From assembly GCF_003201675.2 (NCBI RefSeq), contig NZ_CP029287.2:124001-188000 (forward strand): a DNA stretch of 64,000 nt, written 5' to 3'. Positions 14,720-22,711 of this stretch are shown here, one piece after another. This DNA comes from Metallosphaera hakonensis JCM 8857 = DSM 7519 (GTDB taxonomy: Archaea; Thermoproteota; Thermoprotei_A; Sulfolobales; Sulfolobaceae). The notes below the pieces were generated by a model, which was not told the DNA's origin, did not search any database, and worked only from the letters and a program-made list of their open reading frames with translations. The position numbers and the translations under genes were made by a program. Within the stretch, counting starts at the first letter, position 1. Every line of letters starts with the position of its first letter.

Positions 14720-15382
14720 TTACCTGGAAGTAACCTCGGTTAGACTGGCCTTTACTATACCGAAACCCCTTGACTTGAATCTCCCCAATCTCACCAAACC
14801 GTTGTTTATCACCTTAATGGCCTCCCTAAGGAGTTTCTCGCATTCGTGGTCAGAGCAGAGAACTTCAAACTCCACCTTGGCATTAGAGGCCTCAACTTTC
14901 AATCCCTCATATTTCGGATGTCTCGACTCTAGGAAATTGTAACTGAACCTGAGGTTTCCAACCTCCCTTAAATTCTTGATCTCCACATTATCTCCCAGTA
15001 TTCTCATCTTCCCCCTTACCTTACCGTTACCAAAGACCCTACATACAATGCAGGGGGATGAGAACTTATCCCTATATTCTTTGAGGCTCTCCCTACACTG
15101 CTGTGAGGCAGGAGATAGATTTTCAAACATGTCTTGAATATCGCTACATGTCCTAACTAAATCCTCGTCTCCCCTGCATATCCGCGAGGTTACAAACTCA
15201 CAGGAGTTCTCACCCTGAGAGTACACCGCCGCCGTTCTCAGTAATCCCTTAATTGAGGAGATGGGGACGAACTTCTTCGTGGGATAAAGGCCGTAATTGA
15301 ATTCTACCTTTTTCTCGCAAGGGACTGATTGCCCTATAACGTATTGGGTTACGGGAGTTAGGGTTACCTTGAATTTCTTCAA
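14720..15382 (-). CDS. Cas7-like RAMP protein of a type III CRISPR effector module
   Basis: This 220-residue protein is a RAMP of the Cas7 (Csm3/Csm5/Cmr6-like) group. The RAMP signs are 'FVPISSIKGLLRTAAV' (the P-x-SS-x-KG-x-LR loop, about residues 39-54), a cysteine pair in 'CIVCRVFGNGKVRGK' and the C-terminal glycine-rich loop 'GLVRLGRFKSRGFGIVKA'. Such subunits line the crRNA in type III complexes. The loop in front of the SSIKG motif has no aspartate, so it probably does not cut target RNA. It is the last gene of the module and overlaps the protease gene upstream by 4 bases (ATGA), so the two are made together. Confidence 0.82.
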   Translation of the reverse strand: MKKFKVTLTPVTQYVIGQSVPCEKKVEFNYGLYPTKKFVPISSIKGLLRTAAVYSQGENSCEFVTSRICRGDEDLVRTCSDIQDMFENLSPASQQCRESLKEYRDKFSSPCIVCRVFGNGKVRGKMRILGDNVEIKNLREVGNLRFSYNFLESRHPKYEGLKVEASNAKVEFEVLCSDHECEKLLREAIKVINNGLVRLGRFKSRGFGIVKASLTEVTSR

Positions 15383-15696
15383 GGATCCTCTACCTTGTTT
15401 TCCTTATAGTTAACTGTGAGACCGATTCTCTGAAGTCCGTTCTCTCCAATGAGGTTTCGACTGAAGTTGGGATGGGTTAGACATGCCATCTTAATACTCT
15501 TGGACCCATACCTTATCTCCACCAACTTCAACCTAGTGGGAAAGTACTCCCCTGAGATGGACTTCACGTAGGGTCCCCGGATTTCTTCTCCCGCGATCTT
15601 GGAGAAGGTGTTGAAGTCCAACAAGCACTCACCATCAAAGCCCGTATCCAATTTGAAGGTCACCGCTAAGCCTCCGATCTCCAGATCCAAGTTCAT
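15379..15696 (-). CDS. Retropepsin-like (clan AA, DTGF-type) aspartic protease in the CRISPR module
   Basis: This 105-residue protein has the half-pepsin pattern: the catalytic loop 'FKLDTGFDGECLL' with Asp-Thr-Gly at residues 17-19, a flap region ('YVKSISGEYFPTRLKLVEI'), and the second hydrophobic-hydrophobic-Gly motif 'NLIGENGLQRIGLTVNY'. This is the arrangement of the clan AA 'DTGF' proteases (AF_0612 type). Active enzymes of this size work as homodimers, each giving one Asp. It has no signal or membrane segment, so it acts in the cytoplasm. It overlaps the Cas7-like gene on each side by 4 bases, which argues strongly that it belongs to the effector module. Its substrate is unknown; a module protein or a host or virus protein are possible. 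Confidence 0.8.
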   Translation of the reverse strand: MNLDLEIGGLAVTFKLDTGFDGECLLDFNTFSKIAGEEIRGPYVKSISGEYFPTRLKLVEIRYGSKSIKMACLTHPNFSRNLIGENGLQRIGLTVNYKENKVEDP

Positions 15697-16889
15697 AGGT
15701 TCACCACTCCCTCTGCCTTCACCTCATATTTAAGGTTCCTCGCCTTGAGATCCGAGATTATCCTATCCAGTTCTTCAGTGGTTTTCGCTTCATGAGTCTT
15801 TCCCTCCTGGTCCACCACTATGTACTTAACCTGGGAGTCCCCCTGCAAAAGCGACGAGAGCAATGACGACGGGAATATCTTCCCTAGGATTCCGTAATCC
15901 GCGACGGGGGCACCTGGTTCCCGCGGTAGGAGACTTAGGGACCTACCTTGGAGAAGTGAATATTCGGAGAACTTAACCTCTTCGTTGAAGTGAAGCTCAA
16001 ACGATCCGTAACCTGAGGTCCCCCTCCCTCCAATCCATATCTCCCCGAATCTGGCCTTTTCCTTCATATCGTTTAAGGCCTCTGTTATCTGTTCCAGTTT
16101 CGTGTCATCCAGAATCAAAATGAAACCCAGGAACTTTACCCCTGCGGGGATTATCTCCTCAGTGAAAAGCTTGCTTTTCTCGCTGGTGCCGGTGACCCTG
16201 TTTATGGCCACGTGGGTTTCCCTCTCAAGGAGGATCGGAAAAGGATCTACCGCAACCAGGTCGGTGAACTTGACGTAACCCCTTACTCCCGAAGTCCCCA
16301 GAAGGTTGCAGACCTTGCATATGTTCTCCCTCCTGGTTATCTTGTTCCACAGGGACTTCTCCCTCCTCTTCCTTTCATCTTCGATGAGGCTCATGTTAAC
16401 GCATTGATCAAGGTCAGAGGTAACGTAACAGGACTCAGACGCATTCCTCCCAGTGACCTCGAAGTAAAGGTCCAGGTATTTTACTAGTTTTTCTTCATTG
16501 TAATTCCCCTCTTCCTTAATCTCGCACTTCTCCGTGAGGAGACCGGCGTCGTGAAATAGGTTAATTTCCTTACATAGGTCCTTCATTAGGTCCTTCATTA
16601 GATCGTTATCGCGTGATGGTGCCGAACTCAACGCCTTCCTTATCTCCGCTTCGTTAACCAAGGGAGCGTTGGGAGCCATCCTCTTCCTCAAGAACCTCTC
16701 ATAGGTTGACCTTAGGACTCCCTTGAATGACGTTGCAGGAATGGCAGGGATGTAATACAGTTGGTTATTATCCACTTGAAGTGGGATCTTGTATGTCATG
16801 ATGTCAGCTGCCGAGTAATCAAAGTATACTCCCGTTGAACCTATCCTGGTAACAGACTTGGTTTCAACTACCACTGGTAGCACTTTCAT
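15693..16889 (-). CDS. Cas7-like RAMP (Csm3/Cmr4-type backbone subunit)
   Basis: This 398-residue protein carries the full Cas7 pattern: 'YYIPAIPATSFKGVLRSTYERFL' (residues about 46-68), 'CKVCNLLGTSGVRGYVKFTDL', 'ETHVAINRVTGTSEKSKLFTEEIIPAGVKFLGFILIL' and 'IWIGGRGTSGYGSFELHF'. These match the Csm3/Cmr4 backbone that binds the crRNA. Asp29, in the loop 'SAADIMTY' before the PATSFKG motif, sits where the target-RNA cleaving Asp of Csm3/Cmr4 is found. A long insertion with several Cys residues follows the first motif, and at about 398 residues it is larger than usual (about 220-300). It overlaps the small 114-residue gene before it by 26 bases and the protease gene after it by 4. Confidence 0.88.
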   Translation of the reverse strand: MKVLPVVVETKSVTRIGSTGVYFDYSAADIMTYKIPLQVDNNQLYYIPAIPATSFKGVLRSTYERFLRKRMAPNAPLVNEAEIRKALSSAPSRDNDLMKDLMKDLCKEINLFHDAGLLTEKCEIKEEGNYNEEKLVKYLDLYFEVTGRNASESCYVTSDLDQCVNMSLIEDERKRREKSLWNKITRRENICKVCNLLGTSGVRGYVKFTDLVAVDPFPILLERETHVAINRVTGTSEKSKLFTEEIIPAGVKFLGFILILDDTKLEQITEALNDMKEKARFGEIWIGGRGTSGYGSFELHFNEEVKFSEYSLLQGRSLSLLPREPGAPVADYGILGKIFPSSLLSSLLQGDSQVKYIVVDQEGKTHEAKTTEELDRIISDLKARNLKYEVKAEGVVNL

Positions 16890-17208
16890 TGCGGAGCTCC
16901 TCCTCCACCTGGAGTTGATTAGATCTGATAATCTCCATGATTTTACTCACCGCTCCTTCAATGTCATTTTTATCAAGATATTGTCTTAATTCCTGAAAGT
17001 TACTTTTATCAATATATTTAAGAGCACTAAGAGAAAGGATTACGTTATTCTTTTGATCGAAACTCATCACTGGCCCACCTAATCTCTGTAACAAAGCCAT
17101 CTGTTTCAGAACTAGGACTATCTCTTTTATTTTTTCGATGTCCTCCAGAACCTCCTCCGGTTTCACCCTATTCTTCTTTCTCTGACCTCTCACCCTAATC
17201 TCCTCCAA
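16864..17208 (-). CDS. Small helical protein, candidate Cas11-like subunit
   Basis: This 114-residue protein is predicted to be nearly all helical ('KPEEVLEDIEKIKEIVLVLKQMALLQRL', 'NFQELRQYLDKNDIEGAVSKIMEIIRSNQLQVEEEL') with a basic start (RGQRKKNR). The size and helix content fit the small subunits (Csm2/Cmr5, now Cas11) of type III complexes, and the gene overlaps the Cas7-like gene by 26 bases. This is an inference from position and composition; there is no diagnostic motif. The start codon is uncertain: TTG at 17208, or a GTG five codons later that has a GGAGGAG ribosome site in front of it. Confidence 0.6.
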   Translation of the reverse strand: MEEIRVRGQRKKNRVKPEEVLEDIEKIKEIVLVLKQMALLQRLGGPVMSFDQKNNVILSLSALKYIDKSNFQELRQYLDKNDIEGAVSKIMEIIRSNQLQVEEELRNESATSGS

Positions 17209-17536
17209 AGCCTCATCCTTAATGGAAAGATCTCATTAATTAATTAACATGAAATTTGAAACTTTCAACTTTATAGAAGATCAAGTCCGAGTCTCGCTAA
17301 AATTGCCGGGTCTCTCCAATTACTTTCAATACTTAATTAAGTTGAAACTATTTGTTAGTCTCAACAACGTTCAGAAAGGATTTAGGGACCGCGGTAACCC
17401 TCAATCAAGGCTTTAGCCTAGATTCTGACTCAACTCTACCTTGCGAGCTCTTTCCACGAGATGAGGTAAGTCATCTAAGAATTTGACAGTTTTACCGTCT
17501 CAGAGATACCGGATGTCTGTTACAGTTACTTTAGAC
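17209..17536. other. Internal gap of the CRISPR-like module
   Basis: A 328-base AT-rich gap splits the module into cas10-cas5-like-154 aa and 114 aa-cas7-protease-cas7. It contains degenerate CRISPR repeats (listed separately) and probably the promoter of the second sub-operon. No open frame of note. Confidence 0.6.
17262..17346 (-). CRISPR. Degenerate two-repeat mini-CRISPR candidate
   Basis: Bases 17262-17285 read CTTTCAACTT then TATAGAAGAT on the plus strand, that is the reverse complement of the Sulfolobales type of 24-base repeat ending in GTTGAAAG. A second, more decayed copy begins 61 bases on (17323, CTTTCAATACTT), keeping the ATTGAAAG-type handle but not the other half. The 37 bases between them have spacer-like size. 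Read on the minus strand the array points into the 114-aa/cas7 sub-operon. It could also be two chance fragments; the second copy is weak. Confidence 0.4.
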
Positions 17537-18001
17537 TCAGCGGATGTCGAAACGATTCTGGAGTTCTCGGTTTTCCGTTTCTTCTCTTTTCTTGCCCCCT
17601 GATTTTGTCCCACACTCTTTAAGGATTCCCCTCACTTCTTCATTATTGTAGAGGAACTTAGGGGTTACTACGGTATTTTTAATAAATTTGTTCATTAAGC
17701 GGTCTAAACATCCGAATACCTTCCGACATAGTTCCTTGTCCTCGAGCAGACAGATCAGTTCCAAGGATTCACCGTTGAGGTTCATGAGAATTCTGGACAT
17801 GAACGGATCTCTCTCCTTCCCAGACCCGAACACATACTGTATTAGCTCCCCTGTATCCCTTCCGCAGGTCTTCTTGACGTAGCACCTAAAGATAGTCTTA
17901 AGCAACCAAAGGGTCTCCACGTCCTTTACTTTAATGTTAAGGGTGTGCCTTCTATCTTGTAACTTCTCCAGGCTCATGTTTCGGTATTTATCTAAAGACA
18001 A
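17537..18001 (-). CDS. Unrecognised protein of the CRISPR-like module
   Basis: This 154-residue protein matches no family that I recognise. It is mostly helical, has five cysteines (among them CYVKKTC near 40-46 and C..L..DKELC near 83-92), and a charged, probably disordered tail (TKSGGKKREETENRE). Its start overlaps the end of the Cas5-like gene by 10 bases, so it belongs to the same operon. It could be a second small (Cas11-like) subunit or the signature accessory protein of this variant; a comparison with csx26 of subtype III-G is the first thing to try. Confidence 0.65.
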   Translation of the reverse strand: MSLDKYRNMSLEKLQDRRHTLNIKVKDVETLWLLKTIFRCYVKKTCGRDTGELIQYVFGSGKERDPFMSRILMNLNGESLELICLLEDKELCRKVFGCLDRLMNKFIKNTVVTPKFLYNNEEVRGILKECGTKSGGKKREETENRELQNRFDIR

Positions 18002-18804
18002 GGAGCGATCACCCCCGTTCCGGCTATTAGGTATAATTTCGTGTAGTGGTCCCGCTCGTCCTCAATGGTCAGAGTCTTGTTGATCCAATAGAAGCTCCCT
18101 GGGCTTCCCTTCCTGCACTCGAGGGATATTAAGTAGGCAAGTCGTTTTCCATCCCTCAGTTTGATAAATCTACCCGGTATTCCACCGCATGGATCTTGAG
18201 AATCTTGAGGTTCTGTGAAAGAGTAGGAGTAAACTGGTCTCTCCTGTCCCATGTAGTTGGAGTTCTGAAATCTCAGGATCTTGATGTTGACCCTCGTTGA
18301 GTTCGTCCCAGTTATGTGATTGATGTCTTTCTCGTCAGACAGAACTAGGTTATATAGGCACATTTTGGTTTCGCTCCCCAAAGTTAGACCCTCAGGTTCC
18401 CCTTCAAGCTCCACCACAGTGAAGTTGTTCCCTACGTAGTAGAGATATTTACTAAGAATTTCGAAAATCATTGACTTCTCCCCTACGACATATCCTTCAA
18501 ACCTTGAAAAGTTGAGACCCTTCTCCCTTATGATCTTACTGAAGAACGGTTCAGTCTTATTTAACACTCTGTGTATTGACGTTCTGGAGACGTAGTGTTT
18601 CTTCTGTGATGTTGAACTCCTCCCGTAGTTAATTAGTTTGAAATCAGAGAACATTATCATTTCCTTGGGATCAACCTTATCCTTATTCAACACCATTCCG
18701 TGCACCACTCCTCCAGCCAAGGTGGTGGACGGTATAATCTCCTTGCCGTAAAGACCGAACACCTTTAATCTAACCTTGTACACCGACGGAGAACTTAGGC
18801 TCAT
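17992..18804 (-). CDS. Cas5-like RAMP protein (Csm4/Cmr3/Csx10-type)
   Basis: This 270-residue protein starts like a RAMP (VYKVRLKVFGLYGK) and has the loop 'IPSTTLAGGVVHGMVL' at about 25-40, which corresponds to the P-S-x-x-x-G motif before the first helix of Cas5/Cas7 proteins. The C-terminus ends in a glycine-containing strand-loop-strand 'YLIAGTGVIAPCL'. Its place directly after cas10 (4-base overlap) is where Csm4/Cmr3/Csx10 genes usually lie; such proteins hold the 5' handle of the crRNA and contact Cas10. The assignment to Cas5 rests on position and these motifs. Confidence 0.65.
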   Translation of the reverse strand: MSLSSPSVYKVRLKVFGLYGKEIIPSTTLAGGVVHGMVLNKDKVDPKEMIMFSDFKLINYGRSSTSQKKHYVSRTSIHRVLNKTEPFFSKIIREKGLNFSRFEGYVVGEKSMIFEILSKYLYYVGNNFTVVELEGEPEGLTLGSETKMCLYNLVLSDEKDINHITGTNSTRVNIKILRFQNSNYMGQERPVYSYSFTEPQDSQDPCGGIPGRFIKLRDGKRLAYLISLECRKGSPGSFYWINKTLTIEDERDHYTKLYLIAGTGVIAPCL

Positions 18805-21494
18805 ACCAACAACCTCGCCACGTAAGCTCTCACTTTCTCCTCAGGGTTAAGCTCAATGGAGAACGGTTTACTCTGGTACTCTCTAACCAACCTGTAAATC
18901 CCTTCGTTCGTAAGTTTCTTGAAGTTCCTGAATTCGGGGTAGGCAACTTCCTCGCTAGACGTGACCACGAACTCAACTACTTCCTCTGAGTTACCTTTGT
19001 TCAGTCTGTCATCCAACGCCTCCTCAACTTGTTTTAGGGAAAAAGCGTTCAAGGGTTCGGTAGGAACATTGTTTCTGTTCATGATTAGGGGTATTATCTC
19101 AATCACGGTTGGCCCAGATTCGTTATTATCCTTTACGCGTTCCACTCTCTCATTTAGTATCTCAATAATTAACGAAATGCTTGTGTATGTCTTAGCCTTG
19201 ATGAGATAGATCTGAATACTAGGTAAGCTGGACGCTTTTACGTATTCTCCAGGTTTATCTAACCAATCCAACTTGAAGATCACTTCCTTGAGGAATCGGA
19301 CCACATCTTTCTTCCGAATCGCGGTCATCAACAAGGGTGAGAAAGTCGTTGGAGCGACAAGGATTAATTGATTGATTCCAACTATGTAAGTTAACGCTAG
19401 GACCTCCTCTCCTAGGATTGAGAAGCTCTGCATCAAGCTGAAGTATCTGTCGAGAGCCTTCGGAACCTCTATTTCTTTTCTTAACTTGCCCGCGTTAGGG
19501 TCATTGAATAACTTTTTACACCCTCTGAAAGAGTTCTGATCTTTTGGTTCCAGAGTTACACTCTTTACTATACTTTCTATCTTTTTCCTGATAAAATAGA
19601 AATTTTTTCCGCCAATTAAATCTTTCAAGTTACCCAAGATGAAATTAGTCGTCTTATTCAACTCTAGTCCATTTTCATACAATTCAACACTATCGAAAAA
19701 TCTCTCCCCTACGGATTCTGGATCCCTCTTCAATTCTTCCCGAAGCTTATCTATCCTTTTCAAGAATTCATTTAAAATATCTTGATTTTGCTGATCCTGT
19801 TTATTCTTGAGTTCGGTTTCTATTTTGGACTTAATGTCATTAGTGAGTTTTCCCACCAAACAGTTAGATAGTTCTAAACATCCAAGTAATTTGATGTAAT
19901 ACTTTCTGGGATTGACCATGAAGGCTTCCGAATCATTCCTTTTAAAGATATCTAGATCAGGCTTTATGATCACATATATAACGTCGTCTGATGAGTCCGC
20001 AAGGTCGTCCAGACTACGACCTCTCCTCTCATGAGGCTTGAACTGCAAAAGGTGCCCCCAACCTTGGCTTTGGTTCCCCCCACCCGTGTTTTCGTCACCA
20101 AACCTCACTCCCGAAGACCTCCCTAAGTAGTAAGAAGATAGTCTTACACCAAGGCAAATATTACATATTTTCTCATCCGAATCCAGTATACCTTTCTTCA
20201 TGAGATTCTCAAATATTTCGGGTTTCATGTTTACGGCTCCTCTGACCTTGCATATATCACAAGTTTCGTGGCCAACAGGGAAACCCCTTATGCGGACTTC
20301 AATTCGTTCGTCCTTGATCCTCTTGGGTTCCCCTTTCTCTCCAAGATTCAATAATTCATTAAGTCTCTTAGCGCTATCTTGAAGTTGTCTCGTGGTATCG
20401 GTCAGGTCTTGGCCAGGGCTTTGAGAGGACTGTTTATTACCAATTATATTCGTTTCGGCAATTATTTTATTCGTGATGTATATTTCATGAACGATTTCGG
20501 ATAGATGTTCACTGAAATTGGACCTCGATAAGGCCTCATTGGGAGCCTTCTCTATGACAGAGCTCGATAAAACTTCATTGAGAGTCTTCTCCACGGCCTC
20601 CTTGACGAACTCGGGTAGTTTAGTCACCCTGTCCTTATCTAGAAAGAGCACTATGGACCTATGGTCAGTATACCATATGAGGGGAGTGAAGAAGTCAATA
20701 AGGGGAGAGTCATATTTACTAAGACCGTCCTCTATGATAATTTTCTTGCAAATATTTCGGGATAAGTTTAGTATTATTTCGTTGAGATGATATAGGAATA
20801 TCCTGGTAATAGCGAAAATGCCTTCTAGATCCTTCAGTTTCCTGATCGAAGAGAGAAAGGGGTTTGAGATCTCAACTACGGTGACATACCTGAGGGATGC
20901 CAGAAAAGCTCCACGGTTATGGGAAAGAACCGAGATATCATTACCTGTTATCCAACTTCTCTGTGGGAAGAACTTAATGGAGTCCACTACAATCTTTAAA
21001 TCTTCTAAGTTCAGATCATCTCCCTGTACAATCTTCTTGAGGGTAGTTGCGAAGATATCACCGTACTTAGATGTCAGATAGGAACATTGATACTTCGACA
21101 AACCCTTAAACTCTTCCTCAGGTTGAACGGGTTTGAAGCGAATGTCCCCAACGGATTCCAGATAATATTGTAGAGACAATGAATAAGGATTTAATATGAC
21201 TGAAGGTAATCTTTCTAGCAGATCCATTACTTTCTCATTATTTCCTATGAACTCTTGGCTCTGTTCAGCCATGCTAGCTATCCGATCGTAATCTTCATAC
21301 TTGGATTTTAGATTAGAATAACCCTGTGAATTTTTAGATCTCCCTCCCTTTGGGAAAAGTCCCTTAAAGAGATCATGAAAGTAAGAAATCAAGGTTTGGT
21401 CTCCACTTGGCGGATATTTCTCTAGGATCTCATCATGTCCATGATTCTTCATCTCTTCACAGACCTGCCGGGATTCGGGGGATTGTGATGACAT
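18801..21494 (-). CDS. Cas10 large subunit with degenerate cyclase motif
   Basis: This 897-residue protein is a type III Cas10. The N-terminal region has an HD-like start ('LISYFHDLFKG', about 34-45), a 'DYDRIASMAEQSQEF' segment like the 'ADRxAA' of HD-Cas10, and 'WITGNDISVLSHNRGAFLASLRY', which matches the 'DISLyDH.k.TAA.A' motif. A zinc site follows in the middle ('CDICKVRGAV', 'EKICNICLGVRLSSYYLG'). The first Palm strand keeps an Asp (IIKPDLDIFKR), but the GGDD of the second Palm is VGIN in 'LTYIVGINQLILVAP'. It therefore should not make cyclic oligoadenylate. It is the first gene of the module, with an ATG about 25-30 bases after a TATA-like caataaag. It is likely the crRNA complex scaffold. 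Confidence 0.85.
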   Translation of the reverse strand: MSSQSPESRQVCEEMKNHGHDEILEKYPPSGDQTLISYFHDLFKGLFPKGGRSKNSQGYSNLKSKYEDYDRIASMAEQSQEFIGNNEKVMDLLERLPSVILNPYSLSLQYYLESVGDIRFKPVQPEEEFKGLSKYQCSYLTSKYGDIFATTLKKIVQGDDLNLEDLKIVVDSIKFFPQRSWITGNDISVLSHNRGAFLASLRYVTVVEISNPFLSSIRKLKDLEGIFAITRIFLYHLNEIILNLSRNICKKIIIEDGLSKYDSPLIDFFTPLIWYTDHRSIVLFLDKDRVTKLPEFVKEAVEKTLNEVLSSSVIEKAPNEALSRSNFSEHLSEIVHEIYITNKIIAETNIIGNKQSSQSPGQDLTDTTRQLQDSAKRLNELLNLGEKGEPKRIKDERIEVRIRGFPVGHETCDICKVRGAVNMKPEIFENLMKKGILDSDEKICNICLGVRLSSYYLGRSSGVRFGDENTGGGNQSQGWGHLLQFKPHERRGRSLDDLADSSDDVIYVIIKPDLDIFKRNDSEAFMVNPRKYYIKLLGCLELSNCLVGKLTNDIKSKIETELKNKQDQQNQDILNEFLKRIDKLREELKRDPESVGERFFDSVELYENGLELNKTTNFILGNLKDLIGGKNFYFIRKKIESIVKSVTLEPKDQNSFRGCKKLFNDPNAGKLRKEIEVPKALDRYFSLMQSFSILGEEVLALTYIVGINQLILVAPTTFSPLLMTAIRKKDVVRFLKEVIFKLDWLDKPGEYVKASSLPSIQIYLIKAKTYTSISLIIEILNERVERVKDNNESGPTVIEIIPLIMNRNNVPTEPLNAFSLKQVEEALDDRLNKGNSEEVVEFVVTSSEEVAYPEFRNFKKLTNEGIYRLVREYQSKPFSIELNPEEKVRAYVARLLV

Positions 21495-22316
21495 TTTAAG
21501 AGAGTCACTAATCTTTATTGCACTACATATCTAAATCTTTTCTCCTTAACTTGTCTCTTAGTTCATTTTTTATTTCATTTGAACAAGTAATAAACCCCCT
21601 CTCAAATTTAGCTCTCATCATGTTTAAGAGGACGAGTAACTTGAGGTCTACCTTAAATTTTATCGAGGTTAACGTTAGGCGCACTTTTAAATCTACGTTG
21701 ATTTCGAATTTATGAGAAACCAATGAGTCTAATATCTGGGAAAATTGAAAGACCCACAAAGTAGAGGATGCAAGTAGCATCAAAAAGAATTTGAGTGGCG
21801 CGTAGAGTGACTTTGGCTATAGATAACGGGTTCACTACTATGGTCAATCATCATCGATCGCGAACTCAGTTTATTTAAGGAATTCTCATAACCTAATTAA
21901 ATATTATTGCAGTAGCTAGGTAATAATTAGGTCCAATAAGTTCCATTATTAGCTTTTTTGTTAACAAATTACAATTTATTATATCTTACGAATCCTCCCA
22001 TGTTCTATCGCTCTTTGGATCTCCTTAAACTGGAGAGATTTACCTAACCTTATTCTAGGCCTATCATCTCTAACTTTCCTCAAGACTATTTCACCTCCTT
22101 CCGAGTGAACCTAAAAAATATCATGTTTTTCACCTTAATCTTGCGCCTGGGACTACTAGTAATAGTTGTGTATTTCACTTAAGAATTACGTTTCTTACAC
22201 AATCTATTCATGGAAGTCTCGCTCCCTATTGGGGCTAATATTATCATTTGATAATTCCTCGAAAATTCCTCCCTCTCCATGACTCTACATTCTTATTTTC
22301 TGATATAAAGATTTTA
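21495..22316. other. Intergenic region upstream of cas10
   Basis: About 820 bases with no gene I can support. An open frame on the minus strand (21523-21783) covers the cas10 promoter and shows no family pattern. At 22163-22220 lies a stretch that recurs at 54987-55043. The rest is AT-rich. Confidence 0.45.
22163..22220 (+). repeat. Dispersed short repeat 2, copy 1
   Basis: About 58 bases from agttgtgtatttcac to tggaagtctc recur with roughly four fifths identity at 54987-55043 in the same orientation. The shared core is acgtttcttacac. It does not code for protein. Confidence 0.45.
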
Positions 22317-22340
22317 CTTTCAACTCTATAGAAGATTAAC
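22317..22340 (-). CRISPR. Solitary CRISPR-repeat-like sequence
   Basis: The 24 bases CTTTCAACTC-TATAGAAGAT-TAAC are, in reverse complement, a Sulfolobales-type CRISPR repeat (GTTAATCT... ending GTTGAAAG). They differ at three of 24 positions from the copy at 17262-17285. No second repeat is found 60-70 bases to either side, so it stands alone, upstream of the type III module and in front of a fragmentary gene. Confidence 0.6.
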
Positions 22341-22381
22341 CGGTCACTTTTATATCGTGTATTGTAATCATTAGAACCTTC

Positions 22382-22711
22382 GTGGTGGGATATGGGCTCA
22401 ACGAAAGCTTAGGTTCCCTCCTTGAGAATGCGGTCTACCTTGAACTTAAAAGAAGATATGGCGGAGATTCCATATTTTACTATCGAGGTAAGAACGAAGT
22501 TGATTTCATAATCCGTCAAAATAACGAGATCAAAGAGGCATATCAAGTTACTTTCACCCTGAACGATGAAAGGGAGATTAAGGGACTTAAGGAGGTTTTG
22601 AGAAGGAAGAAGGTTCCTGCCTACGTTATAACTTTCGATGATGAGGAGAAGGAAATTTCAGGGATTAGGGTTCTGAAGGGTTGGAAGTGGATGTTGGGTT
22701 CTTTTCCTTAG
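22382..22711 (+). pseudogene. C-terminal fragment of an AAA/DUF4143 ATPase
   Basis: These 109 residues match the end of the archaeal AAA_14/DUF4143 ATPases: '[50 protein letters not shown]', the PD-(D/E)xK-like end domain with E-V-D-F and Q-V. The ATPase core and Walker motifs, present in the full-length relative at 39742-40989 (415 residues), are missing here. It is a remnant of a deleted gene; expression as a separate small protein is possible but unproven. Confidence 0.75.

Follow-up and report, generated by a model that had tools for sequence, protein, structure and literature searches.

The locus raises the question of whether a 24-base sequence in the gap between two sub-operons of a CRISPR effector locus of Metallosphaera hakonensis is a CRISPR repeat, whether it forms part of a small array, and what role it could have there. 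An earlier note on this DNA had read it as part of a degenerate two-repeat CRISPR that could yield a crRNA-like regulator or decoy. The window analysed is a stretch of 64,000 nucleotides, and all positions given for the host are positions in that window.

The subtype III-G locus and its repeats

Analysis with PADLOC and NCBIfam profiles showed Cas10g, a Cas5 of subtype III-G, Csx26, two Cas7 proteins of subtype III-G, and the aspartyl protease of Sulfolobales type III operons. As Cas10g, Cas5g, Cas7g, and Csx26 were found together, the locus was assigned to subtype III-G (Table 1). Loci of this subtype were present in 9 of the 214 genomes of the order, and a genome-contig search returned no relatives of Cas10g. 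III-G loci have been reported without a CRISPR array, and their guide RNAs have been proposed to be borrowed (PMC12669027). The present locus resembles them in its Cas10g, Cas5g, Csx26, and Cas7g and in having neither a working array nor adaptation genes, but it differs by the presence of two CRISPR repeats, of which one retains part of a leader, in a kind of locus for which no array was reported.

Table 1. Positions of the genes, repeats, and other elements of the III-G island and its surroundings in the window
Feature	Position	Strand	Remarks
cas7, subtype III-G (second)	14720..15382	-	
Aspartyl protease gene of Sulfolobales type III operons	15379..15696	-	
cas7, subtype III-G (first)	15693..16889	-	
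Small helical protein gene	16864..17208	-	adjoins cas7 on its upstream side; may start at 17208 or at a later GTG
Solitary family-I CRISPR repeat, copy 1	17262..17285	-	transcript orientation CTTGATCTTCTATAAAGTTGAAAG; TATA-like CTATAAAG inside; no adjoining leader
Claimed spacer (37 nt)	17286..17322	-	no match elsewhere
Imperfect 38-bp palindrome	17317..17354	.	centred on CTTAATTAAG; contains the claimed decayed repeat 17323-17346
csx26, subtype III-G signature gene	17537..18001	-	
cas5, subtype III-G	17992..18804	-	
cas10, subtype III-G (Cas10g)	18801..21494	-	
Dispersed element, 55-73 bp	22147..22220	.	lies between cas10 and copy 2; present about 20 times in the host genome
Solitary family-I CRISPR repeat, copy 2	22317..22340	-	transcript orientation GTTAATCTTCTATAGAGTTGAAAG; same sequence as the repeats in a long array of congener G184
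Remnant of repeat-proximal CRISPR leader end	22341..22370	-	TATA box (ATATAAAAG) positioned much as it is in the G184 leader
Truncated C-terminal end of DUF4143/PDC-S01-type ATPase gene	22382..22711	+	109 aa

On the plus strand, copy 1 reads CTTTCAACTTTATAGAAGATCAAG and copy 2 reads CTTTCAACTCTATAGAAGATTAAC, with 3 mismatches between them (21 of 24 positions shared). The transcript orientation of both copies is the minus strand, the same as that of the cas genes, and the 5'-handle end comes last in GTTAATCTTCTATAGAGTTGAAAG. With up to 3 mismatches allowed, the two sites were the only ones in the window (0 expected from window shuffles) and also the only copies in the closed genome of 2,544,115 bases, where a reversed control pattern gave 0. 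They scored 39.8 and 27.2 on the family-I profile, the next best site in the window scoring 8.4, and both retain the core TTGAAAG end. The 17262 sequence is thus a genuine Sulfolobales CRISPR repeat, as had been claimed, and belongs to family I; its direction into the cas7-protease genes and its place in the promoter region of the second sub-operon, inside a CRISPR effector locus, were likewise borne out. The gap of 328 bases described around it (17209-17536) holds provided that 17208 is the first base of the small gene that precedes cas7, and that start is uncertain. A weak repeat-like site at 21728 on the minus strand was rejected, its score being equal to that of chance sites, and an Rfam scan of the region gave no match.

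The island is flanked by an MFS and a GH31 gene, and in congeners G182, G183, and G184 these two genes adjoin, 0.07 to 2 kb apart. The gap between them in G183 contains a PIN-type toxin-antitoxin-like pair and a methyltransferase-like gene, and no repeat was found at this locus in any of the three congeners. Since the two genes are neighbours in the congeners and the content of the gap differs, the III-G island has been inserted where the gene content varies. The island makes up 0.34% of the host genome, yet contains both solitary repeats; for two independent placements the probability is about 1e-5, so the association of the repeats with the island is not due to chance. Eight other genomes with III-G loci had no solo repeat in the control regions of those loci. 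The locus of one of them (L050, G203) has an adjacent cas6 and CRISPR arrays on both sides, and lies within a large CRISPR island that has two adaptation modules; the position of the III-G genes between arrays in G203 shows that the two can be neighbours, which bears on the report that III-G loci lack arrays.

The small gene upstream of cas7 was kept in every examined III-G locus holding cas7, with products of 72-114 aa that are all helical. Its copies were located at L043 6880-7131, L044 12012-12266, L045 7044-7319, L046 4896-5159, L047 14873-15091, L048 5491-5709, L049 7191-7463, and L050 13712-14053. The product had no match in Pfam, NCBIfam, or PADLOC, and its predicted fold consists of four helices (pLDDT 82). 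The protein may be a small (Cas11-like) subunit that has been overlooked, though neither sequence nor fold gave a significant match in favour of a Cas11 identity.

The site at 17323

The second, decayed copy that the earlier note placed 61 bases away was not confirmed. The site at 17323 has 12 mismatches in 24 positions to copy 1 and 10 to copy 2, and 74 places in the window equal or exceed its family-I profile score of -3.5. For a match of such quality at a plausible repeat period, the chance was 0.03 by profile, 0.009 by the heptamer alone, and about 0.057 by mismatches, all of these measures having been picked after the fact. The part that is genuinely common to the site and the repeats is CTTTCAA(T), which is also one arm of the 38-bp imperfect palindrome. 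Because CTTTCAAT in this region is part of that palindrome, it needs no CRISPR origin. With a profile score at noise level and half of its positions mismatched, 17323-17346 was rejected as a CRISPR repeat and is better read as an imperfect palindrome.

No other repeat copy was found within normal spacing of 17262 or 22317. One property of a mini-array was present, namely a repeat identical or nearly identical to that of an active array in a related genome (22317 is identical to the G184 repeat and 17262 has 3 mismatches). Two further properties were absent: there are not at least two repeats with a spacer of normal length, and the leader, about 30 bp at 22317 and missing at 17262, falls short of the length that adaptation requires (400 bp in S. 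solfataricus). As there is no credible second repeat, the element is one solitary repeat and not a two-repeat CRISPR, and as a single repeat outside an array it falls among the stand-alone CRISPR repeats.

Origin of the repeats

The host has three arrays near two cas1 genes, with the repeats GTTTCAAACCCTCTAAGGAACCCTACAAAC and CTTTCAATTCCTTTTGGGATGCAAC or its 26-base variant, and these are unrelated or only distantly related to the solitary repeat. Unrelated repeats in the genome's own arrays had been named beforehand as the result that would refute the earlier reading, and for the host genome this was the result; congeners do use the 24-mer. A long array in G184 has repeats identical to the 24-mer at 22317 (26 of 26 in the part examined, at the leader end), and, among the matches listed, arrays in G185 and Candidatus Aramenus have repeats close to it. 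When the 328-bp gap was compared with 31 family genomes, the only convincing match was at the repeat.

A positional profile was built from eight family-I leaders. The 30 bp beside the 22317 repeat scored 4.6, a value reached by 1e-4 of window positions and by 0 of 5000 shuffles; the corresponding fractions of window positions and shuffles were 0.0015 and 0.0036 at 20 bp and 0.007 and 0.0026 at 60 bp. The flank of copy 1 had an ordinary score (0.64) and no leader. Local alignment of leader sequences did not show the similarity, the resemblance being short; the positional profile did. The similarity at 22317 ends after about 30 bp, and the truncated ATPase gene comes next. In S. solfataricus at least 400 bp of leader is required for spacer integration (PMC5815122), so a site with about 30 bp of leader should not gain spacers. 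The stretch between the 22317 repeat and cas10 also holds a fragment common to G188-G190. The dispersed element in the same stretch has the core AGTTGTGTATTTTACCTGAAAATTACGTTTCTTACACATCTATACATGGAAG, and its copies are spread round the host genome, with one in G196.

The two 24-mers are probably stand-alone remnants of a family-I array that lay in or beside the III-G island. Such an array would once have been part of the island or been carried next to the III-G genes. The 22317 copy would be its leader-proximal first repeat, with about 30 bp of leader and the TATA box left and the remainder replaced by other sequence, and the 17262 copy, which points the same way, would be a second repeat that has mutated and now heads the cas7 sub-operon. 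The probable route is loss of repeat-spacer units through recombination of direct repeats, combined with reshuffling of the modular III-G genes. For Sulfolobus arrays, deletion of this kind has been inferred (PMC4390879), and it could leave a leader and one repeat. Since a second repeat at the usual distance, a complete leader, and a host array of the 24-mer are all lacking, the element is dead as an array; III-G most likely gets its guide RNAs from other arrays, as has already been proposed. A remnant also fits with the failure to find a guide target, the insertion of the island, and the lack of solo repeats in the other III-G loci. The history of deletion and the lack of a present function are inferred. 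The repeats and the leader edge inside the III-G island would then be a physical trace of an array and a hint at the repeat family that was used.

Several observations speak against a relic. The 22317 repeat is perfect and the TTGAAAG end at 17262 is intact, though free decay would strike all positions; each repeat precedes a III-G module, and the two are oriented alike; the substitutions in copy 1 produce a TATA-like box; and no intermediate stage, that is, no strain with a larger array at this locus, was seen.

Import from a virus or plasmid was also considered, by which the repeats would have arrived with a mobile element and the island or its debris would derive from that element. Virus-borne mini-arrays and stand-alone repeats have been described in Sulfolobales (PMC6858448), three viral contigs carried family-I mini-arrays or single repeats, and the site is an insertion hot spot. 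The published stand-alone repeats are alike in being single Sulfolobales-type repeats outside arrays and without a full leader; those found here are chromosomal, lie in a III-G cas island, number two in the same orientation, and include one with about 30 bp of leader. The published ones have no recognisable leader, whereas 22317 has a piece of one, no viral genes were noticed around the island, and the exact 24-mer was not found in viral contigs, all of which makes import quite improbable. One of the viral contigs (IMGVR_UViG_2974636149; L093 880-1029, 8424-8510, and 12762) contained two family-I mini-arrays, one with three repeats and one with two, as well as another repeat on its own.

Guide searches and possible regulatory roles

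A search of the claimed spacer 17286-17322 against viral and host genomes, which the earlier note had proposed, gave no match: the segment had no other occurrence in 31 family genomes, phage records gave nothing similar to it, and neither half of it occurred exactly in viral contigs. Guide candidates compared with phages, plasmids, viral contigs, and family genomes had no credible target. An AT-rich 18-mer of the segment after 22317 occurred in three viral contigs and was rejected, the best match over 40 nt covering just 25-27 positions. When 17286-17322 and the segments after both repeats were compared with the III-G control regions (cas10, cas7), the longest match was 8 nt. Partial complementarity of the guide to a cas or toxin promoter, which marks the CreR and CreA RNAs, was thus not found, seeds in the III-G control regions being at most 8 nt; for host type I promoters the guide test covered those within the stretches analysed.

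These results bear on a regulator of the CreR type, a minus-strand RNA with a GUUGAAAG handle that would be loaded into a Cas complex and repress a cas promoter or act as a decoy. The orientation and position of the repeats suit it, the leader-type TATA box is kept at 22317, and the host has a cas6 gene. A single repeat is enough for the 5' handle of a mature type III guide. Ectopic repeats that make such RNAs are known in type I and type V systems (PMC12737573, PMC9458426), and the element is like CreR and CreA in being an ectopic repeat near cas genes that is directed at a cas promoter region. It differs from them in having no second repeat and no partial match to a target promoter, and in its association with a III-G locus instead of type I or V-A. 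In addition, the host arrays have other repeats and the element is absent from all other III-G loci examined, so that a CreR-type RNA is highly unlikely. The crRNA-like regulator or decoy and the autoregulation that had been suggested found no support, as no guide match exceeded 8 nt, the eight other III-G genomes lack the element, and copy 1 is leaderless; there is no positive evidence for CreR-like autoregulation.

The leading functional rival, which we regard as rather unlikely, is that the repeats have been reused as DNA elements, with copy 1 in the sub-operon promoter and both copies as putative Cbp1 sites controlling the III-G modules. It is compatible with a relic origin. Copy 1, with its CTATAAAG box, would belong to the promoter that drives the sub-operon of the small gene, cas7, and the protease, and Cbp1 would repress or format III-G transcription, as it does at array-internal promoters. 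The host encodes a Cbp1 orthologue of 139 aa with three HTH motifs that is 65% identical to the Saccharolobus protein; the query sequence was taken from PDB entry 2lvs, presumably a CRISPR-repeat-binding protein. The core TTGAAAG end, intact in both copies, also favours DNA-element reuse. Relative to the 22317 copy, a change in copy 1 creates CTATAAAG, mutated towards TATAAA, at about 100 bp or less from the possible start codons of the sub-operon, and this is suggestive of a promoter element.

In the known system, 92 sites outside arrays that carry a repeat-like motif are bound by Cbp1 in S. solfataricus, and promoters inside arrays are repressed by Cbp1 where they overlap repeats (PMC10883916), which supports reuse of this kind. 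The present copies, with a repeat-like motif outside arrays and Cbp1 encoded in the genome, are predicted non-canonical Cbp1 sites. They differ from the published ones in that each putative site here is a whole repeat of the array type at cas modules, whereas there the sites are a loose 21-bp motif at ISC1229 transposons. Against a regulatory role, most non-canonical Cbp1 sites may be without one (PMC10883916), the 22317 copy lies 823 bp from the cas10 start, and other III-G loci do without such sites. A stronger version, in which Cbp1 would control both III-G sub-operons through the captured repeats, acting as their promoters or operators, or one of the repeats would give a single-repeat, leader-driven III-G guide, is improbable; if true, expression of an array-less type III system would be tied to the protein that packages CRISPR arrays. 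The solitary repeats provide a simple test case for Cbp1 regulating cas operons outside arrays.

Solitary repeats were also seen in other genomes. Among the matches listed, a solitary family-I-like repeat lies between cas4 and csa1 (cas4a) of an adaptation operon in G191 (L063 9949-9972), and a solitary repeat equal to that genome's array repeat is present in G178 (L064 9787-9810), near MFS and radical-SAM-like genes and with a four-repeat array about 27 kb off.
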